From: an uncultured Collinsella sp.
GTDB lineage: Bacteria; Actinomycetota; Coriobacteriia; Coriobacteriales; Coriobacteriaceae
Direction of reading: 5' to 3'
Assembly: GCA_934630375.1 (NCBI GenBank)
Contig: CAKTVQ010000002.1
Coordinates: forward strand, 62,001-126,000
Length of the DNA: 64,000 nucleotides
Part shown: positions 10,792-30,054 of the stretch, piece after piece
How the letters are laid out: the number at the start of each line of letters is the position of its first letter
Numbering within the stretch: position 1 is the first letter of the stretch
Translations under genes and position numbers: made by a program
Notes under the pieces: generated by a model
The model's input: only the letters and a program-made list of their open reading frames with translations
What the model was told of the DNA's origin: nothing
Database searches by the model: none

Positions 10792-11934
10792 CTAATCGCA
10801 GCTCAAATCGCGCAGCGCCTCAATCGCTGTGTCAACTTCCTCGTCCGTGTTGAAGTATCCAAACGAGAAACGGACCACACCCTGATGCTCGGTTCCCAGC
10901 GCGCGGTGCATGAGCGGGGCGCAATGGGCACCGGGACGGGTCGCAATCCCCCACCCTTGCATGAGCACGTCCGAAATCTCGGCGGAATCGATATCGCCCA
11001 CGTTGAGCGACACGATTGCCGAGCGCGTCGGCTGGTCAAAGGCACCGTAGAGCTTAATCCCCGGAATCTCGCGCACGCCAGCCAGGAAACGATTGGCCAG
11101 GGCGCGTTCGTGAGTCGCAATCGCCTCGACCCCGCCCTGGGCCTCGATAAAGGCGAGGCCGGCAGAAAGGCCCGCGATACCGTGGCCGTTGAGCGTACCG
11201 GCCTCCAAGCGCGTGGGCCACTCCATGGGCTGCAACGCATCGAAGCTGTGCACACCCGTGCCGCCCATGGCCCACGGTACCACGTCGACGCCTTCCGCCA
11301 CGGCCAAGCCGCCGGTGCCCTGCGGACCCATGAGCCCCTTGTGGCCGGTAAAGCACACAATGTCGAGCCCCATGGCCTGCATGTCGATCTTTGCCGTGCC
11401 GGCAGACTGCGAGGCATCGACGATCACAAGTGCACCGACAGCATGGGCCATGGCCGCCACACGCGCAACATCAACGGCGTTGCCGGTCACGTTAGAAGCA
11501 TGCGTCACCACGACAGCGCGCGTGCCCGGTGTGACCAGGCGCTCGAGTTCGTCGTAGTCGAGCATGCCGTTCGCATCGCAGCCGGCATGCTCGACGGCCA
11601 CACCTCGCTCCGCTGCCAGACGATTGAGCGGACGCAGCACGGAGTTGTGCTCGAGCACCGTCGTGACCACACGGTCGCCGGGGCGCACCACACCATTGAT
11701 AGCCGTGTTGAGCGCCGCCGTCGAGTTAGGCGTAAAGCACACATGGTCGGCCCGCGGGCAGCCCAGCAGGCGCGCGAGCTTGGCGCGGCAACCGTGGATG
11801 ATGCGCGCAGCATCGAGCGCGCCCGACGTCGCACCGCGCCCGGCATTGCCGAGCGAGCACATCGCCTGCGTCACGGCATCGATCACTGCCTGCGGCTTAT
11901 GCATGGTCGTCGCCGCGTTATCCAGGTAGATCAT
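10792..11934 (-). CDS. Class V aminotransferase: cysteine desulfurase / selenocysteine lyase (SufS/CsdB-like)
   Basis: The protein has 380 residues and starts MIYLDNAATT, typical of the family. The PLP lysine is in FTGHKGLMG (about residue 200) and the active-site cysteine in GAHCAPL (about residue 338). Members take sulfur or selenium from cysteine or selenocysteine and hand it on as a persulfide or selenide. The ATG overlaps the TGA of the DUF3343 gene (ATGA), with SD GGGAGG, so translation is probably coupled; the in-frame GTG five codons upstream is less likely. As the last gene of a SelD-YedF-DUF3343 string, it most likely delivers selenium to SelD. General Fe-S assembly is the alternative. 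Confidence 0.85.
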   Translation of the reverse strand: MIYLDNAATTMHKPQAVIDAVTQAMCSLGNAGRGATSGALDAARIIHGCRAKLARLLGCPRADHVCFTPNSTAALNTAINGVVRPGDRVVTTVLEHNSVLRPLNRLAAERGVAVEHAGCDANGMLDYDELERLVTPGTRAVVVTHASNVTGNAVDVARVAAMAHAVGALVIVDASQSAGTAKIDMQAMGLDIVCFTGHKGLMGPQGTGGLAVAEGVDVVPWAMGGTGVHSFDALQPMEWPTRLEAGTLNGHGIAGLSAGLAFIEAQGGVEAIATHERALANRFLAGVREIPGIKLYGAFDQPTRSAIVSLNVGDIDSAEISDVLMQGWGIATRPGAHCAPLMHRALGTEHQGVVRFSFGYFNTDEEVDTAIEALRDLSCD

Positions 11935-12182
11935 CGCACGACCTCCCACATGTCGATCACGGTAAAGCCCTCGGTGGGAACGCCCGCCGCGGCAAGCTCG
12001 CCGCGCAGCAGGTCCTCATCCGTGGGCAGCGCTTTCCACGCTAGGCCGCAGCCGGCCGCGACCTCCCCGGGCACGGGAATCGTGCGTCCGGGAAGGCCGC
12101 GCTCGGCGCACAGGGTCTCGCACCCCATGGCGGCCGCCGTGGTGGGAAACGTGATGACCAGCGCCGGGCGCTTTTCCCTCAT
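11931..12182 (-). CDS. DUF3343 family small protein (putative Se/S carrier)
   Basis: This 83-residue protein has an LVITFPTTAAAMGCE segment and a second cysteine in AAGCGLAWKA, the layout of DUF3343 proteins. These small cytosolic proteins are recurrently linked to selenium genes, and their cysteine is thought to carry sulfur or selenium; no biochemical role can be read directly. The chosen ATG lies 18 nt after the yedF stop, and a TTG five codons upstream is possible. The stop overlaps the next gene by four bases. Position between YedF and the desulfurase fits a relay of selenium to SelD, which is inference. Confidence 0.75.
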   Translation of the reverse strand: MREKRPALVITFPTTAAAMGCETLCAERGLPGRTIPVPGEVAAGCGLAWKALPTDEDLLRGELAAAGVPTEGFTVIDMWEVVR

Positions 12183-12200
12183 GGCAATCCCGCCCAAGCG

Positions 12201-12827
12201 TTACGGGCGCACGACGCGCACGGCCTGCTCCATCTTCTCCACGATCACATACATGTTGGTGACCTCGCCCACCGCGAGCTGGTCCTTAATGCCAAAGTGA
12301 TCGAGGCAGGTGCCGCAGGTGAGAATCTCGACACCCTGCTCGGCCAGGCCCTTCAGGTCATCGAGCACCGGCGAGCCCTCGACGGTGAGCTTGGCGCCGC
12401 CGTTGTAGAACAGCATGGTCGCAGGCAGCTCCTCCTGCTGCGTCACGGCAAAGATGAAGGCCTTCATGAGCTTGTGGCCCAGCTCGTCGTCGCCACGGCC
12501 CATGCAATCGGTGTAGACGGAAATGACGAGCTTGCCTTTGCCGTCGCCGGCGTCGCAGAAGGCGGCGCCGTCCTGCTCGGGATCAGCCACTGCCACGGCG
12601 CCAGCGGTCGCCACGGTCACGTGCCACTCGACGTCAGAAGCCTTCTCAACCGAGGCCGTGCAGCCCTTCTCCTGCGCCATCTTGGAGATATTCTTGACGG
12701 CGGTCTCGTTATCGACCGAGGTCACGACAGCGCCCTCGCCATCGAGCTGCTTCAGGGCCTTGAGCGTCTTGACGACGGGCAGCGGGCAGGCATCGCCCAT
12801 GGCGTTAACTTCAATCTTGGTAGACAT
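12201..12827 (-). CDS. yedF: YedF selenium-metabolism protein (TusA-like plus DsrE-like domains)
   Basis: The 208 residues begin with a TusA/SirA-like domain (residues 1-75) carrying the ACPLPVVKT motif with its persulfide-type cysteine. The C-terminal part (about 95-200) is DsrE/F-like, with LVISVYTDCMGRGDDELG and EILTCGTCLDHFG. This two-domain form is the 'sulfurtransferase-like selenium metabolism protein YedF'. It is expected to bind or pass reduced selenium in the cytosol. The SD AAAGG lies 6 nt before the ATG. It sits between selD and the DUF3343 gene on the same strand. Confidence 0.9.
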   Translation of the reverse strand: MSTKIEVNAMGDACPLPVVKTLKALKQLDGEGAVVTSVDNETAVKNISKMAQEKGCTASVEKASDVEWHVTVATAGAVAVADPEQDGAAFCDAGDGKGKLVISVYTDCMGRGDDELGHKLMKAFIFAVTQQEELPATMLFYNGGAKLTVEGSPVLDDLKGLAEQGVEILTCGTCLDHFGIKDQLAVGEVTNMYVIVEKMEQAVRVVRP

Positions 12828-12883
12828 AGTTTTCCTTTCGAGTTCATCGTTCTAAAACAGTACATAGTTCAATAAACGCGCCG

Positions 12884-13933
12884 CTAGCGGACAACGCGAA
12901 CAGCAGGACCGCCCGGCTCTGCCTCGCATACGCGACCGACAACGGCGGCGATGCGATCCTCGGCATGCAAGCGGCGCGCAAGCTCATCCACATCGGCGGC
13001 AGGCGCCGCGATGAGCAGGCCACCAGACGTCTGTGGATCGTACAGCGCATCCAGCATGCCCGGCTCCAGGTCATCGTCGGCAGCCACACGTGGACCAAAG
13101 AAATCCTGGTTGCGGTAGGCACCGGCGGGGATAATGCCCAGTCGCGCCATGTCGAGCACCTGGTCAAAGAGCGGCACCGCCCCAGACGCAAGCTCAATCT
13201 GCACGCCCGATCCCTCAGCCATCTCGCACGCATGCCCGATCAGGCCAAAGCCCGTAACGTCGGTACAGCCGTGAAGCTCGAGCCCCTCGGCAAGGCGAAT
13301 CGGTGCTTCGTTGAGGGTGCGCATCGAGTCAAACATCGCTGCGGCCTCATCCTGCTCGGTGAGCTCGCCCTTAATGGCCGTAGTGATGATGCCAGAGCCG
13401 ACCGCCTTGGTCAGCAACAGAGCATCGCCCACGCGCGCGCCGCTGTTGGCGAGCATGCGATCGAGCGGGACAAAACCGCTCACGGACAGGCCGTACTTGG
13501 GCTCATCGTCATTGATGGTGTGGCCGCCCGCGATGGTGCAGCCGGCCTCAACGCACTTGTCGGCGCCGCCCGCCAAAATCTGCCCCGCAACCTCAACGCC
13601 CAGGCAGCTGGGAATGCACAGCAGGTTCATGGCGTGGCTCGGCGTACCGCCCATGGCGTAGATGTCCGACAGCGAGTTGGCTGCCGCGATCTGGCCAAAC
13701 AGGAACGGGTCGTCGACCATCGGCGGGAAGAAGTCGATGGACTGAACGAGTCCCAGGTTTTCGCCAACACGGAAGACGCTCGCATCGTCAGAGGTATCGA
13801 ACCCCACGAGCAAGTTGTCGTTGGGCACATTTGGTAAGTCACCCAGGACCTGGGCGAGGACTCCAGGAGCCAACTTAGCGGCTCAACCGCTCGCGGCGGT
13901 CATAGACGTGAGCCTAATCGTGTCCTCTGCCAT
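12884..13933 (-). CDS. selD: Selenide, water dikinase SelD, itself a selenoprotein (in-frame TGA = Sec17)
   Basis: SelD makes selenophosphate from selenide and ATP, the selenium donor for selenocysteine and for tRNA 2-selenouridine. The frame from 13873 lacks the N-terminal glycine-rich active-site loop. Extending upstream through a TGA at 13883-13885 reaches an ATG at 13933 and restores TSMTAASG-U-AAKLAPG, where U replaces the catalytic Cys/Sec. The full protein is 349 residues, the usual length. Other family motifs are present: LLVGFDTSDDA, QSIDFFPPMVDDPF and TIAGGHTINDDEP. The SD AGGAGG lies 7 nt before the ATG. The start overlaps the glycosyltransferase gene by 20 nt. A gene call that treats TGA as stop would truncate this protein. 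Confidence 0.92.
13837..13862 (-). promoter_or_regulatory. Candidate bacterial SECIS hairpin in selD
   Basis: Starting 21 nt after the TGA, the minus strand can fold as AGTC-4 nt-CCCAG-GTC-CTGGG-1 nt-GACT. The apical loop starts with G about 34 nt after the TGA, within the distance usual for bacterial SECIS elements that bind SelB. Only the pairing is seen; function follows from the Sec assignment of the TGA. Confidence 0.6.
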
Positions 13934-15158
13934 CGATACCTCCTTTCAAGTTTGATAACTGCTCCAGTATACGCGCCCAGCAGACATCCCACGAAACGGC
14001 AGACGGATCAAAGGACGAGATGGGTTCCGCGAGCGACCGAGCCACGGCATCTGCCAGCGCATGCTCAAACCGCGGACAATCAAGCACATCGGGCGTATCG
14101 ACATCCGTCATACGCGGCGGCGTCACCCATGTCACGGGCGCGCCGGGCAAGGTAGCCTCGATCCACGGTCGCACGCCGGGCAGATCGGTCATGACGACCT
14201 TGCATCCACAGGCCATCGCCTCGATCGGCACCAGCGGTAGGCCCTCGTAAAAGGACGGCAGTACAAACAACTCGGCCTCGCGATAAGCGCGCACCAGCTC
14301 ATCGCGACTCAGACGACCGGCGAGCTCCACCGGCACGGGGGAATCCCGGGCGGCCCGAGCGATGCGCTCATACTCATCCGTATCGCCATGGCCTCCCACC
14401 AGCAAAAGCCGGCTCGGGCGCACCTTGTACGCCGCATCAGAGTCCTCGCCAAAGCGCCCCATCGCGTGCACCAGCGATTCAACGCCCTTCTTAACGCACA
14501 CCTTGCCCACAAAGACGAGCGACCCGGGAACCTTTGCCGTCTGCGCATCACGGCAAAACACCCGGTGGTCATAGCCCGTACCAATCGCATGGATACGCGA
14601 CGGGTCAACGCCATAGACGTGCTCAATCTCCTCTGCCTGCTCGGCATGAAGCGAAAAGACGGCATCGAGGCAGCGGACCGCCGCGACAATACGATCATGG
14701 GCGAGTCCATGGGTCAGCATCTGCCGAATATCGGTCGAATGGCACACGCCGCACACGGGAATCCCCCGCACGCGCTCGCGCACCAAGGCGCACAGCAAGT
14801 ACAAGTGGTGACAGATGATGGCATCGGGCTTGAAGGCGGCGACGGCATGGTCGATTGCCGTGCCAAAGATCTGCTCGAAGGCTGCCGCCATCGCAGGCGT
14901 CAGATCGCGGTAGCGTGTCGAGGGATAGGGCATCACGTCCGACATGCCGCAGATGCGAAACGGCAGCTCGGGCGTCTCGAACGGCACGGTGAACACGCGC
15001 GCGGCGGGGTCGAGCTCCCCTTGCGTGTCCCCGGGCGCAGCACCGCACAGCACCGCCGCCTCGTGGCCCGCAGCAATTTGCGAGGCCACCAGAGCAGCGA
15101 GATACGTGCCGCTTCCCGTGCTATCGGGCTTTTGGGCCGAGATGTTGAGGATGCGCAA
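13914..15158 (-). CDS. GT4-type glycosyltransferase inside the selenium operon
   Basis: The protein has 414 residues and a GT-B fold. The N-terminal acceptor domain has QKPDSTGSGTYLAAL (loop after the first strand). The C-terminal donor domain has FVGKVCVKKGVESLVHA and the EAELFVLPSFYEGLPLVPIE signature (E-x7-E region, about residues 310-325). Such enzymes transfer sugar from a nucleotide-sugar to a small molecule, lipid or glycan. A TTG at 15158 with SD AGGGGG is chosen because it gives the natural N-terminus (M)RILNIS; an upstream ATG would overlap the activase gene by 47 nt. The 3' end overlaps selD by 20 nt, so the two are probably coupled. The acceptor is unknown; a role with selenium is inference from position. 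Confidence 0.8.
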   Translation of the reverse strand: MRILNISAQKPDSTGSGTYLAALVASQIAAGHEAAVLCGAAPGDTQGELDPAARVFTVPFETPELPFRICGMSDVMPYPSTRYRDLTPAMAAAFEQIFGTAIDHAVAAFKPDAIICHHLYLLCALVRERVRGIPVCGVCHSTDIRQMLTHGLAHDRIVAAVRCLDAVFSLHAEQAEEIEHVYGVDPSRIHAIGTGYDHRVFCRDAQTAKVPGSLVFVGKVCVKKGVESLVHAMGRFGEDSDAAYKVRPSRLLLVGGHGDTDEYERIARAARDSPVPVELAGRLSRDELVRAYREAELFVLPSFYEGLPLVPIEAMACGCKVVMTDLPGVRPWIEATLPGAPVTWVTPPRMTDVDTPDVLDCPRFEHALADAVARSLAEPISSFDPSAVSWDVCWARILEQLSNLKGGIDGRGHD

Positions 15159-15171
15159 CGGACCTGCCCCC

Positions 15172-15936
15172 TTACGCGAGTGCCTGCGCGCGAATCGCCG
15201 CGCCGATGGCGCCGGCAAAACGGGCTTCGGGCGAGGTGGTCACCGGCGAGCCCAGCAGCGCTCCCAGCCGCTCCACAACGTAAGCGTTCTCGCAGAGACC
15301 GCCGGTCAGGTAGTACGGGGCGCCCGCTGCCTGTCCGGCCATAGTCGCCACGCGCGACACGACGCTTTCGATCACACCGCGCGCGATGTTCTCGCGCGGC
15401 TCACCGCGACCGATCAGGCTAATGACCTCGCTTTCGGCAAACACCGTACACATGCTGCTGATCTTGGTCGGCTCGCCGGAGCGGGCAAGGTCGGCCATCT
15501 GCTGCTGAGAAATACCCAGACGATCGGCCATGATCTCCAAAAAGCGCCCCGTACCGGCAGCGCACTTGTCGTTCATGGCAAACTTGGCCACGCGGCCGCC
15601 TTTAAGTTGGATGACCTTGGTGTCCTGGCCGCCCACGTCGATCACGGTGCCGTGGTCGCCAAAGAGCGCCACAGCGCCGGTGCCATGGCAGGTGATCTCG
15701 GTCACGACCTTGTGCGCATAGGGCACGGCGACACGGCCGTAACCGGTCGCGACCACACGCACGTCGTCGGCCGCCACGTCGTAGCCGGCCGAAGCAAGCT
15801 CTGCGCGCAGGCGCTCGGCCGCATCGACCGACGAATACCCCGTCGGCATAACGCAAGTCCACGCAATGGCGCCCCCAGCATCCACAGCCGCAGCTTTTGC
15901 GGCCGTCGAGCCAATGTCGATACCAATGCCAACCAC
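15172..15936 (-). CDS. Acyl-CoA dehydratase activase / double-cubane reductase activator (ASKHA ATPase)
   Basis: The 254-residue ASKHA protein carries GIDIGSTAAKAA (phosphate loop), DVGGQDTKVI and the two cysteines of the subunit-bridging [4Fe-4S] cluster in NDKCAAGTGRFLE and SSMCTVFAESE. Members (HgdC, BcrA/D, YjiL) hydrolyse ATP to push an electron into a HgdB-like partner at very low potential. Two such partners lie upstream in the same gene string (17568-20168). The SD is AGGAGG. The gene is separated from the TDT transporter only by a perfect 29-bp palindrome. Confidence 0.9.
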   Translation of the reverse strand: MVGIGIDIGSTAAKAAAVDAGGAIAWTCVMPTGYSSVDAAERLRAELASAGYDVAADDVRVVATGYGRVAVPYAHKVVTEITCHGTGAVALFGDHGTVIDVGGQDTKVIQLKGGRVAKFAMNDKCAAGTGRFLEIMADRLGISQQQMADLARSGEPTKISSMCTVFAESEVISLIGRGEPRENIARGVIESVVSRVATMAGQAAGAPYYLTGGLCENAYVVERLGALLGSPVTTSPEARFAGAIGAAIRAQALA

Positions 15937-15951
15937 GGCATCCTCCTTACA

Positions 15952-15980
15952 TGTGACAAAGGGACAGTCCCTTTGTCACA
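15952..15980. repeat. Palindrome family A, copy 1
   Basis: TGTGACAAAGGGA and TCCCTTTGTCACA flank three bases, giving a perfect 13-bp stem between two co-directional genes. A nearly identical palindrome lies at 29205-29235 and a decayed relative at 17534-17560. There is no T-run next to it, so it is not an obvious terminator. Confidence 0.85.
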
Positions 15981-15984
15981 TTCG

Positions 15985-16911
15985 TTAGGCATTCAAAAAT
16001 GCAAGATAACGCACGCAGGTATAGACAACCAGAATAGCCGCAATCACCGTCTCGACAAGCACGACGGGAGCGAGCCACGGCTGAGGCGTCCCCATATTCA
16101 TGAGGCAGGCGGCCGTCATCTTGGATGCGATGGCACTGATTACAAAGGGGAAGGTAAACGCCGCATAGCTGGGATAAAACGGAAGCGTGAGGCAATGAAC
16201 CAGCTGAACCAAGGCAAACAGATAGATGACCGTCGCAACGGCGAACATCGCCAACAAAAAGACCTGGCTCTTGGGCATGATAGATTGCACGTAACCAGCG
16301 AGGCACAGGCTCATAGGCGCGGCGTAAATGCAGATGAGCGGTTTGGCGGGATCTGGCACATCGGGCAGCTTGACATACCTCATGGTCACCAGAATAAACA
16401 GCGCCACAAAGCTAACCAGGCCAAACCAAAACGCGATGACACCTAAAACCGTAGCTTCATACACGGGCGCAGTAACTGCCGCGACCGCAATGCCAACATA
16501 CACAATGTAATAGCTGGCAAAAACGGCCTTGAGCTCGAGCTTCGCCATGAACTTAACCGAAAAGTACACCATCAACGCGACATGAAGCGCAATCGCAATG
16601 ACCCACGCCACAAATGCCACGTCCGCTACACCGAGGTACCCTTTGATATAGGTCGAAAGCAGCATGAGCGCCATCGAGAAGGTGCCAGAAACGCTTGCCA
16701 TAATCGGGTTCGCCATATCCTCGGCAAACAGTTTGGGGAAGGCGATGACTTTGACGACAAACAGCAGTAGAAACAGGGCCGAAACCACACCGCAGATCAT
16801 GCGCAGCGTCTCGGAATAGGTCTGCAAAAGATTGCCCAGGGCCGCGCAACCCAACGCGACGCCGCAAATCGGAACAGGGATTTTCTTAATCATATCCATA
16901 TGGATAGGCAT
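15985..16911 (-). CDS. TDT (TehA/SLAC1-like) membrane transporter
   Basis: The 308-residue protein is almost entirely hydrophobic, with about ten membrane segments from IPVPICGVALGCAALGNLL onward. This is the pattern of the tellurite-resistance/dicarboxylate transporter family, which includes TehA, sulfite exporters and SLAC1 anion channels. The ATG at 16911 has SD GAGG 5 nt upstream; ATGs further upstream would extend into the spacer without an SD. It lies inside the selenium/redox string between a C_GCAxxG_C_C gene and the activase. An anion such as sulfite, selenite or a small organic acid is a reasonable substrate guess, not more. Confidence 0.8.
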   Translation of the reverse strand: MPIHMDMIKKIPVPICGVALGCAALGNLLQTYSETLRMICGVVSALFLLLFVVKVIAFPKLFAEDMANPIMASVSGTFSMALMLLSTYIKGYLGVADVAFVAWVIAIALHVALMVYFSVKFMAKLELKAVFASYYIVYVGIAVAAVTAPVYEATVLGVIAFWFGLVSFVALFILVTMRYVKLPDVPDPAKPLICIYAAPMSLCLAGYVQSIMPKSQVFLLAMFAVATVIYLFALVQLVHCLTLPFYPSYAAFTFPFVISAIASKMTAACLMNMGTPQPWLAPVVLVETVIAAILVVYTCVRYLAFLNA

Positions 16912-16966
16912 CCTAACCTCGTTGGTTTTCATATGTCGGGCAAAACACCTTGCCAGGCACCTGTTG

Positions 16967-17512
16967 CTATATTTCGATATCGGCAACTTTACGGCGCGGA
17001 GCCGGCTCGTCGACTTCGTCCAAATTCTTCAGGCCGCACTCGCGACACACCATCTGAGCCACCTTCCATGCGCATAGACCCGTGTAGTAAATGCACTGCT
17101 CTTTATGCTCACCGCGGCCCATATCAAATTCCTTCGTCAAGATACGGCAGCAAATAGCATGCTTACCGTTGTTCTCGCGAAACCAATCGTGCAGCTCGTG
17201 AGTGAGCTGCATCGACTTGACTGATTTTGGATTGGTCGGGCCGTCCTGCTCCGTGCGTCCAAACAGCATTCCAAACGCCAGAATTCCGCCATTGAAGGCA
17301 CCGCACGCGCAGCCGGACTTGCCGGCGCCCACCGACATGCCAGATGCCATGGCCACGACTGAATCGGGCACATCCAGCTCGAGCATCTGCTTCATGGTGT
17401 AGACAAGCGACTCACAGCAGTAATAGCCTTTTTTGAAGTTAGCCTCAGCAGCTCGTTGCACAGCACGAGGGCTCAGCTCGGATACGCCAATTACAACATT
17501 GGGTTCAACCAT
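16967..17512 (-). CDS. C_GCAxxG_C_C family protein (putative redox protein)
   Basis: The 181-residue protein shows the family pattern: YYCCESLVYTM, then SGCACGAFNGGILAFG, then a C-terminal half with CCRILT, EQCIYYTGLCAWK and MVCRECGL, about twelve cysteines in all. The family is common in anaerobes and is assumed to bind an Fe-S cluster or undergo disulfide chemistry; no activity is established. The ATG at 17512 has SD GGAAGG; the longer frame upstream has no support. It lies directly downstream of the HgdB-like pair, suggesting an electron carrier or accessory role. A shorter paralogue occurs at 33184-33630. Confidence 0.8.
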   Translation of the reverse strand: MVEPNVVIGVSELSPRAVQRAAEANFKKGYYCCESLVYTMKQMLELDVPDSVVAMASGMSVGAGKSGCACGAFNGGILAFGMLFGRTEQDGPTNPKSVKSMQLTHELHDWFRENNGKHAICCRILTKEFDMGRGEHKEQCIYYTGLCAWKVAQMVCRECGLKNLDEVDEPAPRRKVADIEI

Positions 17513-17533
17513 TTCTTTTCCTTCCAATTCAAC

Positions 17534-17560
17534 GTGACAAAGGAACTGTCCCTTCGCCGC
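17534..17560. repeat. Palindrome family A, degenerate copy 2
   Basis: The spacer between the HgdB-like gene and the C_GCAxxG_C_C gene contains GTGACAAAGGAACTGTCCCTT, clearly related to the perfect palindromes at 15952 and 29205, but its right arm has decayed. Confidence 0.6.
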
Positions 17561-17567
17561 ATTTGTC

Positions 17568-18731
17568 CTACAGAGTCTCGATAAAGGCGGCGATGCGCGT
17601 CTCGATCTGGCCCATATCACCGTTGCTGTAGTCGGTCTCGATCTTCATGTACGGAATGCCCGCACCTTCGACGGCCTCCTGCATGCGAGCGCTCTCAACG
17701 TTGAAGGTGTGGCATGCCTGCAGCACGTTTTCCACCACACCATCCACGTGGTACTTCTCGCACATGGCCAAGGTGTTTTCCATGCGGCCGTCGTTGGGCG
17801 TCATGACCGAGCAGTTGATGTCCAGGTAGCGATCGGCAATGGCGCGCAGAATATCGGGCGCGTCGGGGTCAATCATCATGGCAGCCGTGCGCTCGCCCGA
17901 GCAGTCGTCCATGCACACGACCACGCCGCCGTTGGACTCGATGGTGCGGCCGATCTTGTTGATCACGCCGCCCACCGGGCAGCCGGTAATGAGGATGCGC
18001 TTGGTATCCGCCGCAACGGGGCGCTCGCCCGCGTCGTAAGCCTCGCGCAGGGCAGCGACCTTCTGCTCCAGCTGCTGCGTATAGGCCTCGATATCAAAGC
18101 TAAACGTACCGGCGAACATGGTGCTCATCAGGTCGACGCCGCTCATAGCCGCCGGCTGGTTGGCCTGCAGCGCAAACATCTCGAGCTGGGCGGCGCGCAG
18201 GCGGTTGCGACGACGCACGGCAGCGCGCAGGTCGTCATCGGTAATCGTAATACCGTAGAAGTTCTCGAGCTCCTCCTTGAGCAGGCGACACTCCTCGTAC
18301 CAGCCCTCGCGCTCGTAGACACGGTCACGGCTCTGCGGCAGATGCAGAATGTACGTGCGCTTGAGCTCATTGAGCAGCTCGTACATCTTCTTCTTGCCGT
18401 CGCAGGTGGTCTCGCCGATGATCATGTCGCTAAAGTACGTAAACGGGCACTTTTGCGAGTAGGCAAAGCCGTAGGTCGACTTGATGAGCGGGCACAGGTT
18501 TGCCGGCAGCACCTTCTCGGCCTCGGGAATCACCTCGTCGGACGTACCGCACAGGGCGACGCTTGCAGCCCCCGCGGCATCGATAATCTCGAGCGGCGTA
18601 TAGCTGCACAAAAAGCCGACCAGGCGATTGCCGGCCTGCTTGTAGTCCTTAACGCGAATAAACGCCGCCTTGCGCTGCTCGTTGAACTCCTCAAACGTGC
18701 GCGGCAACGGCTGCTCCTCGATATCGGCCAT
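17568..18731 (-). CDS. 2-hydroxyacyl-CoA dehydratase/HgdB-like (double-cubane family) protein, second copy
   Basis: The 387-residue protein is homologous to HgdB, BcrB/C and YjiM. Cysteine motifs shared with its upstream neighbour are [37 protein letters not shown] and [12 protein letters not shown]. Family members hold [4Fe-4S] or [8Fe-9S] double-cubane clusters and accept an electron from the ASKHA activase to reduce difficult substrates. The ATG at 18731 (MADIEEQ) has SD AGGGAG; nine codons upstream are less likely. No CoA-transferase or dehydrogenase gene is nearby, so a classical amino-acid fermentation dehydratase is less likely than a stand-alone reductase, but this cannot be settled from sequence. 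Confidence 0.85.
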
Positions 18732-18777
18732 GTAGCTCCCTAAAAGAAAAAAAGACAAGAAATTCGACTACGGAGAC

Positions 18778-18878
18778 GGCTTTCCCAGGTGCCCGAGGTT
18801 GCCGTGAAAGAGGAGCGCCGCGTACTTTGGTACGCAGGCGACGGTTTGAACGGCAAGATCGGGTGCCTGGGGAAGCCG
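18778..18878. repeat. Nested 101-bp palindrome between the two HgdB-like genes
   Basis: Outer arms CGGCTTTCCCAGGTGCCCGA and TCGGGTGCCTGGGGAAGCCG pair with a few G-U type mismatches. Inside are an ACGGCAA/TTGCCGT stem and a perfect GCGTAC-TTTG-GTACGC hairpin. The whole spacer between the two paralogous genes is therefore self-complementary. On the minus strand it is followed by a T-rich stretch before the next SD, so it may act as a partial terminator or as an mRNA-stabilising structure. Confidence 0.75.
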
Positions 18879-18884
18879 CGCGGC

Positions 18885-20168
18885 TTAGATCGTCTCCAAG
18901 AAGGCCTCAATACGGGTCTGCAGCTGGCCTGCGTCCTCGCCGGCGTAATCGGTCGTAATGTGCATAAAGGGAATACCGGCCTCTTCGGCGGCCTTCTCCA
19001 CGGCGAAGGACTCCATCTCGTAGAGCGTGCAGAACTGCAGCGCCACGTCGACGATGCCGTCGGCATGCAGGTCGCGCGCCATCTGGACGATGTCCTTCAT
19101 GCGCTGGTCGTTGGGGGTAAAGACGGCGCAGTTGATCTTAAAGTAGCGCTCGGCGATAGCATCGAGCATCTCGTCGACCGTCTCTCCGGACTCGTCGACC
19201 AGGTCCTTGTAGTAACGCGAACCCGTGCAGGACTCCTCTCCCACCACAACGCCGCCAGCCTTCTCGATCAGGTTGAACAGCTTCCAGTTGGGCACGGCCA
19301 TGGGCGTACCGGTATACAGGATGCGCTTGGTGCCCTTGGGCGCCACGCCCTCACCGTTGGCGGCGCGTTCCTCGCACTCGGCAGCCATGTCGTTGATGGC
19401 GCCGGTCAGACGCGGCGTGTCGTCCATAAAGGCAGCCTGCACGGTCAGCAGGCTATCGAGGCCGCTGATGGGCGCCGGGTCGGCGGCACGGGTCGCAGCC
19501 AGACGCTGCAGGGCGCGGCGCTTCTCGTTAACGGCGTGGATGGCAGCCTTCAGGCGCTCGGGCGTGATCTTGACGCCGCACTCTTCCTCGATCTTGGCAG
19601 CGAGCTTTTTGACCTCGGCCTTCCAGGTCACGAGCGTCGACTCGTCGTGCACGTTGGGGATATCCATGACGTACATGTTCTTTTGCGTGGCAAAGAACTC
19701 ATAGGCCTTCTTCTTGCCGTCGCAGGTGTTCTCGCCGACCACCAAGTCGCTCGACTCGATGTAGGGGCAGACCTCGCCCAGCTTAAAGCCGGCAAAGCTC
19801 TTAATGAGCGGGCAGGTGTTGCGCGGCAGATGCTCCTCGACCTTATCCGTTGCCCAATCGGCGCCAGAGCACAGGCCTACAGGAATGCCGTCGCAGGCAA
19901 GCACGATCTCCTCGGGCACGTAGACGCAGAACGAGCCGACGATCTTGGTGGCCTCGCCGGCCTCCTTCTTATCCAGCATCTCCTTAATGCGGCCGCTGTG
20001 GATATTGGTGGCGACAAAATCCAGGTAGGACGTGGACTTGGGGCGATTATTCTGCGTCAGGAACATATCCCCGTACATCTGGCCCACGGCACCCAGCAGC
20101 ATGTCGTGGTCGGCAAGATTCATGCCGAGGCTCTCCCACATCGGATGGAAATCGAATTCTTCAGCCAT
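18885..20168 (-). CDS. 2-hydroxyacyl-CoA dehydratase/HgdB-like (double-cubane family) protein, first copy
   Basis: The 427-residue paralogue of the next gene has an N-terminal extension of about 60 residues (MAEEFDFHPMWESLGM). Conserved cysteines are in GSFCVYVPEE, NTCPLIKSF, EVCPYIESSD, NTCDGKKKAYE, ESCTGSRYY, INCAVFTPND and LQFCTLYEME. Family role: the cluster-bearing component reduced by an ATP-hydrolysing activase, here encoded at 15172-15936. The SD GAGGGG lies about 8 nt before the ATG. It is the first gene of the long minus-strand string. Two adjacent copies could form a heterodimer like HgdAB, or two separate reductases. Confidence 0.85.
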   Translation of the reverse strand: MAEEFDFHPMWESLGMNLADHDMLLGAVGQMYGDMFLTQNNRPKSTSYLDFVATNIHSGRIKEMLDKKEAGEATKIVGSFCVYVPEEIVLACDGIPVGLCSGADWATDKVEEHLPRNTCPLIKSFAGFKLGEVCPYIESSDLVVGENTCDGKKKAYEFFATQKNMYVMDIPNVHDESTLVTWKAEVKKLAAKIEEECGVKITPERLKAAIHAVNEKRRALQRLAATRAADPAPISGLDSLLTVQAAFMDDTPRLTGAINDMAAECEERAANGEGVAPKGTKRILYTGTPMAVPNWKLFNLIEKAGGVVVGEESCTGSRYYKDLVDESGETVDEMLDAIAERYFKINCAVFTPNDQRMKDIVQMARDLHADGIVDVALQFCTLYEMESFAVEKAAEEAGIPFMHITTDYAGEDAGQLQTRIEAFLETI

Positions 20169-20327
20169 GGCGGTTCCCCTCTCGAACCAAAAATGAATAG
20201 CTACGGTATTGCTGCACGGTGGGTGGCGAAAACCCAGCCGTGCTTAAACCCGGAATTTTGGGGAACCTGCTTTGCGGTTGATGATTTAGTTGTGCGTCGT
20301 CTCTCCCGGAGCCGTGAACATACCTGC

Positions 20328-20396
20328 TCATATGCGGCTCCGAGCCATATAGAGGGCGCGCGCGGCAACGCGACGCGAATATGTCTTCTGCGGCAT
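20328..20396 (-). CDS. Possible 22-codon Arg-rich leader peptide upstream of the HgdB-like operon
   Basis: After a strong SD (AAGGAGG) 9 nt upstream, an ATG opens a 22-residue frame, MPQKTYSRRVAARALYMARS then RI, with six arginines. The SD region GAGGGCGCG can pair perfectly with CGCGCCCTC inside the frame. The end of the frame overlaps a second hairpin (CGGAGCCG/CGGCTCCG). The layout suggests a regulatory leader, but the short length gives little statistical support. Confidence 0.35.
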   Translation of the reverse strand: MPQKTYSRRVAARALYMARSRI

Positions 20397-20616: not shown

Positions 20617-21687
20617 CTACCGGCAAACCAGATGGATTCTGCTCGCATCAAAATGCATGCGCAGGGTCTCCCCCGCCTGCGGCAACTCCTCGACAGGCGC
20701 ACTCACCTTGTTGACCTTCCACTGCAGGCGCGTCGGTGCGTCGGCACGTGGCACATCCAGCAGCACCAAGCGCTCAAAACGCGAATCGCTCACGCGGGCC
20801 ACGTGCAGGTCGTAGCTGTTGCGACCACGCTCGGCACGGTTGTCCACATGGAAGTAGCTCGCGCGGATGCCCAGGTACGCCACGTTATCGGGCACCTCGC
20901 GACCAACATTGAAGGTCATGCCCCAATCAAGGGCTTCAACTTCCTGAGGCCCGATCTTGCGCGCGCGGCTCGTGTTCTTGCAGCCCGTCAGGCGCAGCGC
21001 GGCTAAGGTCTGCGGCCGGCGGACCACGTCCTCGACGGAACCGATCTCCTCCACATGCCCGTTGTGCATCACACAGATGCACTCGCACAGACGGCACGCC
21101 TCATCGATATCGTGGCTCACATAGAGCACGGTTCGGTTGCAGACATCGAACAGGTCGAGCATGTTTTGCTCAAGCGCGCTCTTGAGATACGCATCGAGTG
21201 CGCTCATGGGCTCGTCGAACATGAAGATGCCCGGGTGCGCCGCCACCATGCGGGCAAGCGCCACACGCTGCTGCTGGCCGCCCGAAAGTCGCGCGGGATA
21301 GCGGTCGGCAAAGTCGGCCAGGCCAAAGATACCCAAATAGCGTTCGGCAAGCTTTTTGCGCGCTGCGGCGTCGCCGGCATCCTCAACGCCGGCACAAACG
21401 TTATCGGCCACCGTCATATTGGGAAACAGCTGATAGTTTTGGAACAGCAGGGCGCACTTGCGTTCCTGGGGCGACAAGTTGATGCCCGCGGCAGAGTCGA
21501 AGAAGGTCACGCCATTGACGACGATCTTGCCCTCATCGGGCGTCTCCACGCCGGCGATGCAGCGCAAGGTACAGCTCTTACCGCATCCGGAGGCGCCAAG
21601 CAGCGCCACCCGCTCCTCGCCGGCTTCCAGCTGAATGTCGAGGGTAAAGCCGGGATAACGCTTTTTGATATCCAGAACGAGCGACAT
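20617..21687 (-). CDS. modC: Molybdate ABC transporter ATP-binding protein
   Basis: The 356-residue ABC ATPase has Walker A GASGCGKSC, the signature LSGGQQQRVALAR, Walker B GIFMFDEP and the H-loop VSHDID. The last ~100 residues correspond to the C-terminal regulatory part usual in ModC-like importers, though a TOBE motif is not obvious. It energises molybdate (or tungstate) uptake with ModB. It begins immediately after modB (3-nt gap, SD GGAGG inside the modB end), so the genes are surely co-translated. The assignment as molybdate rather than another oxyanion rests on modA/modB and on mog-moeA upstream. Confidence 0.88.
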   Translation of the reverse strand: MSLVLDIKKRYPGFTLDIQLEAGEERVALLGASGCGKSCTLRCIAGVETPDEGKIVVNGVTFFDSAAGINLSPQERKCALLFQNYQLFPNMTVADNVCAGVEDAGDAAARKKLAERYLGIFGLADFADRYPARLSGGQQQRVALARMVAAHPGIFMFDEPMSALDAYLKSALEQNMLDLFDVCNRTVLYVSHDIDEACRLCECICVMHNGHVEEIGSVEDVVRRPQTLAALRLTGCKNTSRARKIGPQEVEALDWGMTFNVGREVPDNVAYLGIRASYFHVDNRAERGRNSYDLHVARVSDSRFERLVLLDVPRADAPTRLQWKVNKVSAPVEELPQAGETLRMHFDASRIHLVCR

Positions 21688-21690
21688 GGC

Positions 21691-23133
21691 TTATCGACCT
21701 CCTTTCGCGACCGCGTCGTCACGCATAAGCTCGGCCAACGCCTCGCGATCGATACGCAGGGCATCGCCACCGACGGGGTCGAGCGAATCGCCCTGCCCAG
21801 CGAGCTCTTTGGCCTGCTTGCGCTCCGCACGGGAAAGACCGCGCTCGCGGTACTTTTGCGAATGCGCCGTGTACATGTTGATGAACAGGATGACCAAAAA
21901 GCTAAAGACGATCACGACGACGACCCAAAAGAGCGCCACCGACGTATTGCCGCCCATCCACTCAAAGTAGATGGCGATGGGAATAGTCTGCGTAATGCCG
22001 GCATAGTTGCCCGCGAAGAACAGGGTGCAGCCAAACTCTCCCATGGCGCGGGCAAAGGCGAGCACCGTGCCGGCGGCAATGGAGGGCCAGCCGAGAGGCA
22101 TCATGAGCTTGGTAAAGATGCGTCGCTCGGACCAGCCCAGCGTGCGCGCTGCATCGAGCATCTGCGTGTCGAGGCTCTCGAAGGCGCCGAGTGCCGTACG
22201 ATAGACGAGCGGGAACGACACCACCACGGCAGAAATCACCGCCGCGGGCCACGTAAAGACAATCGAGATGCCGTGCGCAATCAGCCACTGGCCCACCCCG
22301 GTAGAGCGACCGAACAACATGAGGAGCAAAAAGCCGCAGACCGTGGGCGGCAGCACCATAGGGATGGTAAAGACCGAATCGAGCAGGCCCTTCACGCGGC
22401 TCGTGGTACCCATGGTCTTCCACGCGGCAAACAGGCCCAGCGCAAAGGCAATTACCAAGGCAAGGCCACTCGTTTTAATAGACACCCAAAACGGCCGATA
22501 GTCGATGCCGCCCAAAAAGGAGACCAGAGAGGTCAAGGGCCCCTGTTCATCCTGCAACACGACAGACGACGCTTCTACCATTTGAGCGCTATCAAGCCAA
22601 CGAGCACCACCCTTGGCATCACCCGAGGCAGATGCAATCACCACATAGCGGTCCCCATCCGCACCGCGTTCATCGAAGCCATAGGTATACCCACCGGCAT
22701 CAAACGTTGTTTCCGTCGTAACGTACCAAGGAAGATCCACGTCCTCTAGCTGCGCGCCCCCCATACAGTTTGCGCTGTCGAGCTCACAGACAAGAGCTTT
22801 GAGACCCGATACGAACTCGTTGTCCTGCGGATCCAACCCATACTTTTCGGCCGCTTTGGGCGACATCCACACCACAACGCGATCGGCAGAAGGCGCCACT
22901 ACAAGGTCCGCGTCTTCGTCAACGGGAAACCGGTAGCCCTCGGGCTGGCCCTCCATGGCGCGAGCGGTCCCCTTGGCCAACCGCTCAAAACCATCGATCC
23001 CGTAGGAAAGCCCATGGGCGGTCGCAGCAACCTGGGCCCCGCCCTCAGCATCCCCAGCAAACGCAAATCCCGGCACCCAGCAAAGCACGAGCGTCAAAGC
23101 ACAGGCGACAAAAATGCGGAATCTATTAAGCAC
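21691..23133 (-). CDS. modB: Molybdate ABC permease with a large N-terminal extracytoplasmic domain
   Basis: The C-terminal half (about residues 200-420) is a ModB permease, with LPPTVCGFLLLMLFG and the EAA-type loop DAARTLGWSERRIFTKLMMPLGWPS. Unusually, it is preceded by a signal/anchor segment (FRIFVACALTLVLCWVPGFAFA) and ~170 residues predicted outside the membrane, and is followed by a ~60-residue charged tail. The total is 480 residues against ~230 for ordinary ModB. A GTG at 23133 is chosen because it has SD TTGGAG and gives a proper N-terminus; the longer frame to 23202 would touch the modA stop. The extra domain resembles nothing I recognise and might sense or gate substrate. Confidence 0.85.
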   Translation of the reverse strand: MLNRFRIFVACALTLVLCWVPGFAFAGDAEGGAQVAATAHGLSYGIDGFERLAKGTARAMEGQPEGYRFPVDEDADLVVAPSADRVVVWMSPKAAEKYGLDPQDNEFVSGLKALVCELDSANCMGGAQLEDVDLPWYVTTETTFDAGGYTYGFDERGADGDRYVVIASASGDAKGGARWLDSAQMVEASSVVLQDEQGPLTSLVSFLGGIDYRPFWVSIKTSGLALVIAFALGLFAAWKTMGTTSRVKGLLDSVFTIPMVLPPTVCGFLLLMLFGRSTGVGQWLIAHGISIVFTWPAAVISAVVVSFPLVYRTALGAFESLDTQMLDAARTLGWSERRIFTKLMMPLGWPSIAAGTVLAFARAMGEFGCTLFFAGNYAGITQTIPIAIYFEWMGGNTSVALFWVVVVIVFSFLVILFINMYTAHSQKYRERGLSRAERKQAKELAGQGDSLDPVGGDALRIDREALAELMRDDAVAKGGR

Positions 23134-23201
23134 GAAACGCTCCAAGAGAGGACAAGAACGGGGTGAAACACAAAACGATGGAATTATCGCGCCAAGCCGC
23201 A

Positions 23202-24074
23202 CTACTCGGAAAGCTCAAAGCCGTACTTAGCCCAAATCTTCTGCGCCTTCTTGTTGGTCAGGCAGAAGTCGATGAACGCCTTGGCCTCATCGGCATGCTC
23301 GGAGCTCTCGGCCACGGCACCCGGGTACACAATGGGCTTGTGCGAATCCTCGGGGCACACGAAGGCCTCCTCGATGCCGTCATAGCGGTAGATATCGGAG
23401 CTGTAGACAAAACCTGCCACGCAGTCGCCCGTGGACACGTAGGCGGCAGCGGTGCCGACCTTATCGGCCAGCGCGACCTTGTCGGCAATCTCGGGCGCGT
23501 ACTCGCCGTCGTCGCCCTCGGTGCCGGTGTAGAGGCCGACGGAGGCCAGCGCCTGGTTGGCGTACTTGCCAGCCGGAACGGTCTTGGCGTCGCCGATGGC
23601 GATCTTGCCGTCCAGGTTCGCGACGTCGGCGATGGCCTCGATCTTGGTGTCGGAGCCCTCACCGCGAATGATCACAAGATCGTTGACGAACATATCCTCA
23701 CGGGTGTCGGTGTCAACGAGCTCGGCGGCCTCGGCGTCATCCATGGTGCCCTTGGAAGCGGTGATGAGCACGTCGACTGTGGCACCGGCGCGCATCTGCT
23801 CGACAAGGTCGCCAGACGCCTTGAACTGCGTGTCGGCAAACGTGGTACCGGTCTGGTCGGTGTAGAACTCCTGAACCTCGGGCAGAGCCTTCTCGAGCGA
23901 GTTGGCGGCAAAGACCTGCAGCTCGACAGCCTTCTTGGACGAAGTCTTGGCGGAACCGGCATCGGAGCCAGTCGACTCAGGTGCCTTATTGCCGGAGCAC
24001 CCGGCAAGGCCAAAGCCGGCAGCGACGACAGCTGAGAGCGAGACGAATCCGCGGCGAGAAACCATATCGAACAT
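23202..24074 (-). CDS. modA: Molybdate-binding lipoprotein
   Basis: The 290-residue protein has a signal sequence with twin arginines (VSRRGF) and a lipobox LAGC-S at about residue 26, so it is probably a lipoprotein, possibly Tat-exported. The mature part is a ModA-type periplasmic-binding fold: LQVFAANSLEKALPEV, FKASGDLVEQMRAGATVDVLITAS and AIGDAKTVPAGKYA. It captures molybdate or tungstate outside the cell for ModBC. The SD AAAGGA lies 5 nt before the ATG at 24074. It heads the modABC operon and has its own promoter region with inverted repeats. Confidence 0.92.
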   Translation of the reverse strand: MFDMVSRRGFVSLSAVVAAGFGLAGCSGNKAPESTGSDAGSAKTSSKKAVELQVFAANSLEKALPEVQEFYTDQTGTTFADTQFKASGDLVEQMRAGATVDVLITASKGTMDDAEAAELVDTDTREDMFVNDLVIIRGEGSDTKIEAIADVANLDGKIAIGDAKTVPAGKYANQALASVGLYTGTEGDDGEYAPEIADKVALADKVGTAAAYVSTGDCVAGFVYSSDIYRYDGIEEAFVCPEDSHKPIVYPGAVAESSEHADEAKAFIDFCLTNKKAQKIWAKYGFELSE

Positions 24075-24768: not shown

Positions 24769-26031
24769 CTACAACACGGCGCCCTCGGGCAGGTCGACGC
24801 GAACAACGTCCACGACGTCGCCCGCCTTGAGGTCGCACGGCCCTTCTTCAATACGCAGCAGGCAGTTGGCCCGCTGCATCGTGCCGAGCAACGCCGAATT
24901 CTGCGTCTTGGCCTCGGTCACCAACAGCTCACCGGTCTCGGGGTCGCGCAAAACCGTGGCGCGATCGAAGAAGCGGCGATGCTGTCGCTTTTTCACGCCG
25001 TGCGTGAGCGTCGCCTGCTGCACGGGACGCACGCCCTCGGTAAAGCCGCGCATCTTGCGAATCGCCGGGCGGGCGAGCATCTCAAAGCCCACATATGCCG
25101 CGGCCGGATTGCCCGAAAGCCCCAGGTAGGGCTTACCCCCGAGCAAGCCAAACGTGATGGCCTTGCCCGGACGCATCGAGATGCGGTCAAACAGTACCTC
25201 GCCCTCGCGCCGGACGAGCGCCGTCACGAAATCGTAATCGCCCGCCGAGGCGCCACCGCTTGTAATGACAAAATCGCACTCCTGCACGGCACGATGCACC
25301 AACTCGGCGATCGCCCGCTCATCATCGGGCGCAATGCCGTAGAACACGGGCTCGGCTCCCGCATCGAGTGCCTCGGCCATCAACGCGGACGAGTTGGAGT
25401 CGCGAATCTGCCCGCGCGCCGGCAGCTCACTCGGCGCGACCAGTTCCGTCCCCAGCGAGATAATGCCAACACGTGGGGCAGCGTGCACCTTCACGCTCGC
25501 ATATCCGGCGCTTGCCAGCAGACCCGCGCCCGCCGGAGCCACGACCTCGCCGGCGTGCATCACAACATCGCCGGCATGGGCCTCCTCGGCGGCAGAGCGA
25601 ACGTTCTCCCCTACCTTGGCAGGCGCCGAGAACCTCACACGCGAGCCCTCGTTGCCGTCGCCATCGAGCACGTCGACGATCTCGTATTTCACCACGGCAT
25701 CGGCACCTTCGGGTACCGGCGCGCCCGTCATGATGCGGACCGTCTCACCCGCGCCGATTGCGCCCCCAAACACATGGCCCGCGGCCTCGTGTCCGATAAC
25801 GTCGAGCATCACCGGCGCCTCGCCAGATGCCTGCGCCAAGTCCGACGAGCGCACGGCATATCCGTCCATAGCGCTGTTGGCAAACGGCGAGATGTCAATA
25901 TCGGCCACCGCATCCTCTGCCAAGGGAAGACCGGCGGCCTGCCACACGGGGATCTCGACAACTTCGGTGCGATTCACGTGCGACAAGACGATCGCCTGTG
26001 CGTCCTCCAACGGAATGAGTTTCTCAGCCAT
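24769..26031 (-). CDS. moeA: Molybdopterin molybdenumtransferase MoeA
   Basis: The 420-residue protein has the four-domain MoeA layout: SPFANSAMDGYAVRSSDL (conserved MDGYA), RIMTGAPVPEGADAVV, GIISLGTEL, SGGASAGDYD and GLSGNPAAAYVGFE. It inserts molybdate into adenylated molybdopterin. The ATG at 26031 with SD AGAGG gives the usual N-terminus MAEKLIPLEDAQ. A -10 TATACT lies at 26090-26095 on the minus strand. Together with mog and modABC it shows that the organism makes molybdenum cofactor. Confidence 0.93.
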   Translation of the reverse strand: MAEKLIPLEDAQAIVLSHVNRTEVVEIPVWQAAGLPLAEDAVADIDISPFANSAMDGYAVRSSDLAQASGEAPVMLDVIGHEAAGHVFGGAIGAGETVRIMTGAPVPEGADAVVKYEIVDVLDGDGNEGSRVRFSAPAKVGENVRSAAEEAHAGDVVMHAGEVVAPAGAGLLASAGYASVKVHAAPRVGIISLGTELVAPSELPARGQIRDSNSSALMAEALDAGAEPVFYGIAPDDERAIAELVHRAVQECDFVITSGGASAGDYDFVTALVRREGEVLFDRISMRPGKAITFGLLGGKPYLGLSGNPAAAYVGFEMLARPAIRKMRGFTEGVRPVQQATLTHGVKKRQHRRFFDRATVLRDPETGELLVTEAKTQNSALLGTMQRANCLLRIEEGPCDLKAGDVVDVVRVDLPEGAVL

Positions 26032-26207
26032 ATACACCTCTAGCATGCTGCGGCGCACATCACGGGCGCCGATTCTTTATGTTTATCTCAGTATAATCCC
26101 CCGCCGCCTGCTCAAGACCTGGCCCGCGGCCGCGAATACACCTGTCGGTAACGGACGGCGAAACAGAACCGAAACCAACCCACCAGCTTGACGCGTTTGT
26201 CACGCTC

Positions 26208-29204: not shown

Positions 29205-29235
29205 ATGTGACAAAGGGACCGTCCCTTTGTCACAT
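29205..29235. repeat. Palindrome family A, copy 3
   Basis: ATGTGACAAAGGGA and TCCCTTTGTCACAT enclose three bases (perfect 14-bp stem). It is identical in its arms to the copy at 15952-15980. Confidence 0.85.
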
Positions 29236-29262: not shown

Positions 29263-29841
29263 TTAGGCGAAGGTGATCTCGCCATTCTCGCAGTCCATAT
29301 CGGCAATACGAGCCAAGCTCTCAACGCGGAATCCGCGCTCGCGGAGCTTGTCGCCGCCGCCCTGGAAACCCTTCTCCACGGCGATGCCAATGCCGGAGAC
29401 CTCGGCGCCTGCAGCCTCGCAGATCTTGATAAGGCCTTCGAGCGCGCAACCGTTGGCCAGGAAGTCGTCGATGATCAGGACCTTGTCGCCCTCGGACAGG
29501 AAGCGCTTACCCACGATAACCGGATACTCCTTTTGCTTGGTAAAGGAGTAGATAGTCGTGGCATACTGCTCGCCGTCGAGGTTGATGGACTGGGCCTTCT
29601 TGGCAAAAACAACCGGCACGCCACCAAAATGCTGGGCCGCGATGCAGGCCATGCCAATGCCCGAAGCCTCAATCGTCAGGATCTTGTTGATCTCGACGCC
29701 CTCGAACAGACGGGCCCACTCGGCGCCCATATGGTCGAACAGCTCAACGTCGCACTGGTGGTTGAGGAAGGCATCAACCTTAAGGACGTTACCGGCCTTT
29801 ACGATGCCGTCACGGCGAATACGATCCTCAAGCTCCTGCAT
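29263..29841 (-). CDS. xpt: Xanthine phosphoribosyltransferase
   Basis: The 192-residue protein carries the PRPP-binding motif [11 protein letters not shown] and typical Xpt segments ([34 protein letters not shown]). It converts xanthine plus PRPP to XMP in purine salvage. The ATG at 29841 has SD AAAGGG; the longer open frame upstream is non-coding leader. No purine riboswitch was recognisable in the 29842-30054 leader. Confidence 0.93.
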
Positions 29842-29972
29842 GGCGCAACCCTTTCTCGCGGCAATGATTCCGCGCGATGAACAAACGTTGCACGATAGTC
29901 TACCACGGACCGACCCCCACCCGCCCCACAAGCCTCGTCGCACTATAAAGCCGCAAGACCAGTCAATTTGGG

Positions 29973-30008: not shown

Positions 30009-30054
30009 CTTCGTTCCCCACGGATTTGCGGAGGATGCTCGCCACGAAATCGGC

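Follow-up and report, generated by a model that had tools for sequence, protein, structure and literature searches.

Reductases made up of a double-cubane cluster protein (DCCP) and an activase were described by Jeoung and Dobbek (via PMC11971306; solved entries 6eno and 7yyl), and a selenium module with SelD, YedF, DUF3343 and a cysteine desulfurase/selenocysteine (Sec) lyase was described by Lin et al. 2015 (PMC5322559). Here we consider a locus in which both are joined: a string of ten genes, all on the minus strand, within positions 10792-20168 of a 64,000 nt stretch from an uncultured Collinsella sp. (GCA_934630375.1, CAKTVQ010000002.1 positions 62,001-126,000). This whole stretch is called the window, and coordinates are counted in it. 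Both reductases and the activase of the string matched the described DCCP system, and its last four genes are the same four as in the selenium module. The reading we favour, held with about as much doubt as confidence, is that of a selenium-supply operon in which DCCP and activase would reduce or cleave a selenium compound.

The linkage is partly in print. Table 1 of Lin et al. 2015 (PMC5322559), on Slackia heliotrinireducens, lists STRING partnerships of 2-hydroxyglutaryl-CoA dehydratase subunits with YedF and with LysR, of the activase with YedE, YedF and DUF3343, and of a glycosyltransferase with YedE. In the portions of that paper covered, the table is the one place where dehydratase, activase and glycosyltransferase are mentioned; the present analysis counts linkage, lineages and distribution, and adds optional parts and a leader. 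The passages on DCCP in PMC11971306 state no selenium context; here, two apparently non-orthologous copies lie in a selenium operon. DCCP is counted among genes provisionally linked to selenium in PMC10418091, where the type 1 mlp clusters likewise contain DCCP, Sec lyase and SelD and are proposed to serve methyl-selenium use; their methyltransferase and corrinoid protein, however, are not among the ten genes of the window. Finally, the selenosugar synthase SenB and the SelD homologue SenC (PMC10702425, PMC10891094) are a further case in which the gene for a GT-B glycosyltransferase adjoins one for SelD. A preliminary description of the window, made from its letters, had called the string an undescribed system, which the first and third of these sources show to be too strong. 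In the portions of the openly licensed literature covered, we found no description of DCCP, SelD and a GT4 glycosyltransferase as one operon, nor of a selenium-associated GT4 family or the conserved leader. What appears to be new is a 228-nt leader with a 22-codon UGA open reading frame (ORF) and the selenium-associated GT4 family.

Composition of the string and its conserved core

The genes run in the order DCCP1, DCCP2, C_GCAxxG_C_C, TDT, activase, GT4, SelD, YedF, DUF3343 and desulfurase (Csd), with gaps, counted by hand in this order, of 153, 55, 55, 48, 13, -20, 56, 3 to 18 and -4 nt; the range of 3 to 18 is owing to an uncertain start. All ten genes were thus present in the order, on the strand and with the short gaps or overlaps that the preliminary description had given (-20 to 153 nt by this count), and profile scores (Table 1) bore out its assignment of two HgdB/double-cubane paralogues, an activase and selenium genes. 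Also as it had noted, no CoA-transferase or dehydrogenase lies alongside: none was found among the ten genes, nor in a scan of ten flanking ORFs at E<=1e-10, of which three gave no family.

The HgdB-like pair belong by score to the double-cubane reductases. Both scored well over the cut-off of the DCCP model, and the model of HadC, a 2-hydroxyacyl-CoA dehydratase subunit, gave 89.5 and 104.8 bits, far under its cut-off of 700. DCCP1 matched the solved entries 7yyl and 6eno nearly end to end, DCCP2 matched 6eno, and eight cysteines of 6eno/7yyl, ligands or not, faced cysteines in both copies when aligned by eye. The activase matched 7yyl_E, the activase chain of the solved DCCP entries.

Start sites were revised for DCCP2 (most likely 18731) and GT4 (15158). 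SelD starts at ATG 13933, whereas the plain ORF call had begun it at a TTG past an in-frame TGA; read from the ATG, it has this TGA at residue 17, so that SelD is itself a selenoprotein, with the TGA at what we take to be the catalytic position. This codon was kept in 16/16 Sec-type copies of a 20-locus genus survey and in three further genomes (G107, G109, G001); L023 and L024, read as well, are the same genomes as L165 and L162, and the codon read gave no reading for two copies of family f5. The RNA fold 3' of the SelD UGA was weak (z -1.83). The selenocysteine codon and the leader are additions to the preliminary description.

Of 43 genus genomes, 28 had DCCP over cut-off, and all 28 loci were inspected. 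Selenium genes lay in the same fetched stretch in 27; the contig of the 28th (L171) ends 918 nt past DCCP. Two operon types were seen. In the Sec type (20/28), DCCP is followed by activase-SelD-YedF-DUF3343-Csd; 19 of the 20 have both DCCP1 and DCCP2, L172 being without DCCP1, and six have GT4 between activase and SelD. The second type (7/28) has one DCCP and an activase, with YedF-Csd-DUF3343-SelD following later, 2.6 to 5.8 kb on in the four loci with printed positions. Where the codon at the Sec position of its SelD was read, in five copies (L103, L106, L175-L177), it was TGC, and the SelD match holds no stop in G025 and G047 (Cys-SelD). A formate/nitrite-type channel precedes YedF in both Cys-SelD loci scanned (L103 5322-6158, L104 8746-9699) and is a candidate selenide or selenite channel; an MFS transporter also stands before YedF in L103.

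The core gene order recurs across the genus, which makes a chance arrangement unlikely. The conserved unit is seven genes, DCCP1-DCCP2-activase-SelD-YedF-DUF3343-desulfurase, since C_GCAxxG_C_C and TDT were missing from the other genus operons examined and GT4 was present in six of the 20 Sec-type operons. Of the ten-gene system proposed at first, the core therefore stood, and the idea of ten genes as one conserved unit is ruled out.

Double-cubane reductases and selenium supply

The class sample included 53 genomes of the window's order, in families f1 (the window's own), f3 and f5; among these are Collinsella, Olsenella, Kribbibacterium and Gordonibacter. Counted by hand, selD was over cut-off in 36 of the 53 and DCCP in 23. 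The gene-order comparison across relatives that had been proposed at the outset, of the HgdB pair with selD, gave co-occurrence: DCCP was found over cut-off in 23/36 selD+ and 0/17 selD- genomes (Fisher p 4e-6, without phylogenetic correction). Of the 23 carriers, 21 had DCCP and YedF/Csd together in a single locus, mostly along with SelD.

A role in supply is argued mainly from the finding that DCCP-activase accompanied SelD whether a genome had selA, yqeB or both. Nine selD+ genus genomes were checked for SelA: four with DCCP had it together with Sec-SelD, and four with DCCP and Cys-SelD lacked it (G022, G025, G047, G095, where SelA was not found). SelA was present in G001, G077, G101, G107 and G109, and the window's own genome presumably encodes it as well, judging from these relatives. 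The gene yqeB, marker of selenium-dependent molybdenum hydroxylases (SDMH), occurred in 8/8 DCCP genus genomes checked for SelA, with Sec-SelD and Cys-SelD alike, and in 27/27 selD+ genomes of f1 and f3 but in none of f5. Because DCCP occurs both with SelA and without it, it would serve a step common to both operon types, which points to a role of DCCP-activase upstream of SelD. Among the options first put forward, that the reductase processes a selenium or sulfur compound or needs labile selenium, processing of a selenium compound fits best for the same reason.

In the favoured scheme, the activase would hydrolyse ATP and pass low-potential electrons into both double-cubane proteins, which would yield selenide by reducing or cleaving a selenium compound, either oxidised or organic. 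Desulfurase/Sec lyase, DUF3343 protein and YedF would hold the reactive selenium and pass it on, and SelD, itself a selenoenzyme, would convert selenide to selenophosphate for selenocysteine and, where present, for SDMH; the latter use fits the molybdate transporter genes found upstream of the string. Where present, GT4 might glycosylate a small acceptor linked to selenium, in the simplest case selenophosphate or selenide, giving a form for storage or export, and the TDT/C_GCAxxG_C_C pair might move or buffer a chalcogen anion.

Several observations weigh against this reading. Two DCCP genomes of the order (G111, G115) have no adjacent selenium genes. DCCP is missing from 13/36 selD+ genomes of the order, including G001, which has SelA and SelD; DCCP is therefore dispensable and can be lost. 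In 3/47 DCCP genomes of the class, selD was below cut-off or missing, and the association tests take no account of phylogeny. The DCCP reactions reported in the relevant part of PMC11971306 are those with acetylene, hydrazine and azide, without selenium. DCCP further occurred in 24 genomes of other orders of the class sample; among the 19 loci fetched, some on short contigs, the activase adjoined DCCP in 19/19 and SelD was near DCCP in 0/19. The link between DCCP and selenium genes is thus clade-specific. The case named beforehand as speaking against a link, reductase and activase apart from the selenium genes, was found in part, namely in these 19 loci without SelD nearby. The E. coli control also gave a match to the DCCP family, by which the presence of the family only was seen. 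In favour of the supply reading, besides the channel before YedF in the two Cys-SelD loci, is that in five of the 19 loci (L122, L125, L126, L127, L134) DCCP or activase has nearby a stand-alone domain of the DsrE type, resembling the C-terminal half of YedF.

DCCPs without a nearby SelD, in other orders and in the E. coli family match, would be expected if the substrate of DCCP and activase were a sulfur compound or some other small molecule, and the two genes stood in the operon only through shared anaerobic or metal-cofactor regulation, the selenium genes doing their ordinary work. The DCCP fold family does include a sulfur-transferring desulfidase, and the biological function of DCCP is still described as unknown (both in the part of PMC11971306 covered). 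Against such shared regulation, however, stand the absence of DCCP over cut-off from 17/17 selD- genomes of the order, its linkage to selenium genes in 21/23 carriers, and the linkage of separate DCCP lineages. A quick tree of 61 DCCP rows, with SH-aLRT support only and long branches flagged, divided the linked DCCPs among three lineages, one of DCCP2 and two of DCCP1; of the latter, one comprises f5 and Clostridia, and the other, of f1 and f3, is sister to unlinked copies of other orders. Different families therefore appear to keep non-orthologous DCCPs at the same operon place. We consider the explanation by shared regulation unlikely, though one to be taken seriously.

Proximity of DCCP to the YedF-DUF3343-desulfurase set would also fit the opposite direction of flow, with DCCP as a consumer of selenium: the three proteins would put a labile selenium atom into the double-cubane cluster, for example at a bridging position. 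A labile selenium cofactor is known from molybdenum hydroxylases (PMC11448449, in the part covered). Against this, the cluster is given as [8Fe-9S] in the portion of PMC11971306 covered, and both the three DCCP genomes of the class without selD over cut-off and the 19 unlinked loci of other orders argue against such a dependence; we regard it as quite improbable. For the favoured supply reading, the genomic tie of DCCP to selenium supply, with and without selA, makes the function of DCCP directly testable in culturable gut bacteria.

The GT4 glycosyltransferase family

GT4 was associated with selenium, though not strictly. At 33 of 45 actinobacterial GT4 loci, selA, selB, selD, yedF or csd was present, and in the 32 that had selA or selD the median gap from GT4 to it was 185 nt. 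Among 48 GT4 genomes tested, 44 had selD; the other four (L043, L045, L070, L102) carry a full-length GT4, and a fifth selD-less carrier is G271 (1/14 in the Lachnospiraceae set). In the class sample, both selD-less carriers have broken or partial copies: two overlapping frames in G073 and the C-terminal part in G061. Across 150 Lachnospiraceae, in a sample centred on a GT4 carrier and including four others that had first come to notice through their GT4, GT4 occurred in 13/20 genomes with a TGA in the SelD match, in 0/32 with other SelD and in 1/98 without selD. Near Bacillota GT4 loci, selenium genes were found in 1/34. A strict selenium marker was ruled out by the full-length copies in selD-less genomes and by the Bacillota loci, mostly outside selenium neighbourhoods.

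The nearest folds to GT4 were a mannosyltransferase, GlgM, MshA and BshA. They would suit a GT4 that is no selenium enzyme but, like MshA or BshA, builds the sugar scaffold of a low-molecular-weight thiol, or else makes a cell-surface glycan, and that is carried along; its presence in a minority of Sec-type genus operons, the five selD-less genomes and the Bacillota loci are in line with this. It is harder to reconcile with the actinobacterial neighbourhoods, with the short distance to selA or selD and with the near restriction to TGA-SelD genomes in Lachnospiraceae. A LysR gene, a phosphonate-type ABC transporter and GT4 stand in a row in four Lachnospiraceae (L073, L079, L081, L085), and the LysR beside GT4 in L073 is the selenium-metabolism LysR, which also speaks for a selenium role. 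We lean against the thiol or glycan assignment, but keep it as a real possibility.

Among the fold neighbours of GT4 was 6KIH, which SenB is said to resemble closely in the portion of the SenB paper covered. GT4 showed no sequence match to SenB, and SenB entries were not among the 50 best matches of either GT4 fold list. TIGR04348 (SenB) was not among the 20 NCBIfam families matched at E<=0.001, the presence of this model in the release not having been checked. The ten genes include no SenA, and nearest to GT4 are MshA/GlgM-like enzymes. SenB was called the only Se-glycosyltransferase identified (PMC10891094, 2024, in the part covered); should the GT4 family prove to form C-Se bonds, there would be two such families.

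Two side observations concern GT4. A gene for a TudS-related putative desulfidase lies about 1 kb downstream of it in L082, L086 and L087, scanned in L086 only. An activase domain is joined to GT4 in proteins of 602-669 aa (P0052, P0054, P0060, P0061, P0069), which may be true fusions or reflect lost stop codons.

The DCCP1 leader, the optional pair and neighbouring genes

The segment directly upstream of DCCP1 was conserved like a gene. Its median identity over 20 relatives was 89%, versus 55% for the segment upstream of it and 67% for the DCCP1-DCCP2 spacer; the coding genes except GT4 had medians of 85 to 94% in the same comparison. A short ORF within it (Table 1) is preceded by a strong ribosome-binding site and had the same layout in 28/28 rows found by the core pattern, which are the window plus 27 loci; the loci come from 21 genomes, six of them having been fetched twice. 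Since its variable sites run 2, 4 and 12 by codon position in 17 distinct copies, it looks translated. The leader was present in 20/20 Sec-type DCCP genus genomes and in G001, all TGA-SelD strains; the leader model found no copy in second-type operons or other families among the 50 sources searched. In G001 (L117 7292-7621), the leader is kept with no DCCP match and only an activase piece before SelD.

The leader folds with z -2.9, with changes on both sides in 4/50 pairs, and no Rfam match was obtained at E<=1. Hairpin 1 has the UGA in its upper stem and an apical GGUA, and hairpin 2 shows compensatory changes. In the predicted fold, a helix pairs GGUUCCCC with GGGGAACC at the DCCP1 ribosome-binding site. 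A simple ribosome-position switch was not supported, the pairing of this site being 0.56 with a ribosome at UGA, at UAA or without one. Promoter and terminator scans gave no more matches than shuffles. Compared with the layout of a selenocysteine insertion sequence (SECIS), the conserved ORF and UGA are present, but the stable hairpin holds the UGA within its stem; the usual bacterial spacing from UGA to the SECIS hairpin is 16-37 nt. That the leader senses selenium is a guess; if it does, regulation by such an ORF would be of an uncommon kind. Together, the conserved string and leader suggest a dedicated route of obtaining selenium.

One may go further and suppose a self-regulated system of selenium storage and mobilisation. 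GT4 would be a second, retaining (alpha) selenosugar synthase, unrelated to the family of SenB and using selenophosphate from SelD, DCCP and activase would reductively free selenide from selenium compounds, and the leader UGA, read as Sec only when selenium is plentiful, would tune the operon together with a SECIS-like hairpin. We hold this combination to be improbable.

Table 1. Features of the string, its leader and the genes upstream, in window coordinates
Feature	Position	Strand	Evidence or remark
Cysteine desulfurase / selenocysteine lyase-like protein	10792..11934	-	TIGR01977 422.2 bits, cut-off 377
DUF3343 / Se_S_carrier small protein	11931..12197	-	PF11823 (DUF3343, now Se_S_carrier)
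YedF (TusA plus DsrE domains)	12201..12827	-	TIGR03527 213.6 bits, cut-off 110
SelD, selenide water dikinase, selenocysteine codon TGA at residue 17	12884..13933	-	TIGR00476 337.9, cut-off 125
GT4-type glycosyltransferase, selenium-associated family	13914..15158	-	
ASKHA activase, presumed ATP-driven electron donor of DCCP	15172..15936	-	TIGR00241 227.9 bits, cut-off 125.4
TDT/SLAC1 anion transporter, optional, pairs with C_GCAxxG_C_C gene	15985..16911	-	PF03595
C_GCAxxG_C_C redox protein, optional	16967..17512	-	PF09719
DCCP2, second double-cubane reductase, lineage unlike DCCP1	17568..18731	-	NF040772 494.9 bits, cut-off 350; 6eno match; tree
DCCP1, double-cubane-cluster anaerobic reductase	18885..20168	-	NF040772 491.2 bits, cut-off 350
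Conserved structured leader of DCCP1, 228 nt	20169..20396	-	Identity, folding, compensatory changes
Leader ORF: 22 codons from ATG 20396, in-frame UGA 20330-20328, 13 further codons, UAA 20288-20286	20286..20396	-	
modA and modB; ModC-like ATPase	20617-24074		Upstream of DCCP1; modA and modB over cut-offs, ModC-like under cut-off
MoeA/Glp-like gene	24769-26058		Upstream of DCCP1; under its cut-offs

Of the modABC and moeA genes reported upstream in the preliminary description, modA and modB were confirmed by score, and the ModC-like and MoeA/Glp-like genes stayed under their cut-offs.

Queries with C_GCAxxG_C_C and TDT gave no match in 80 GT4 loci, in 16 loci or in 20 further loci of the genus survey, and a relative of C_GCAxxG_C_C (E<=1e-20) was found in 1/43 genus genomes. 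An insertion private to the window was, however, wrong in part as an explanation, since G115 (family f3) carries the same pair beside DCCP1, activase and DCCP2. TDT relatives occurred in 27 class genomes, within 2 kb of a DCCP match in G115 only, and the pair was present without a DCCP match in 2/245 genomes of another order. A palindromic repeat around GACAGTCCCTTTGTCAC (5 matches versus 0.01 expected) occurs at 15953-15979, 17534-17550 and 29207-29233, and the first two of these sites flank the pair. A xanthine phosphoribosyltransferase gene lies at 29263-30153 on the minus strand; selD+ genus members carry the SDMH marker yqeB.

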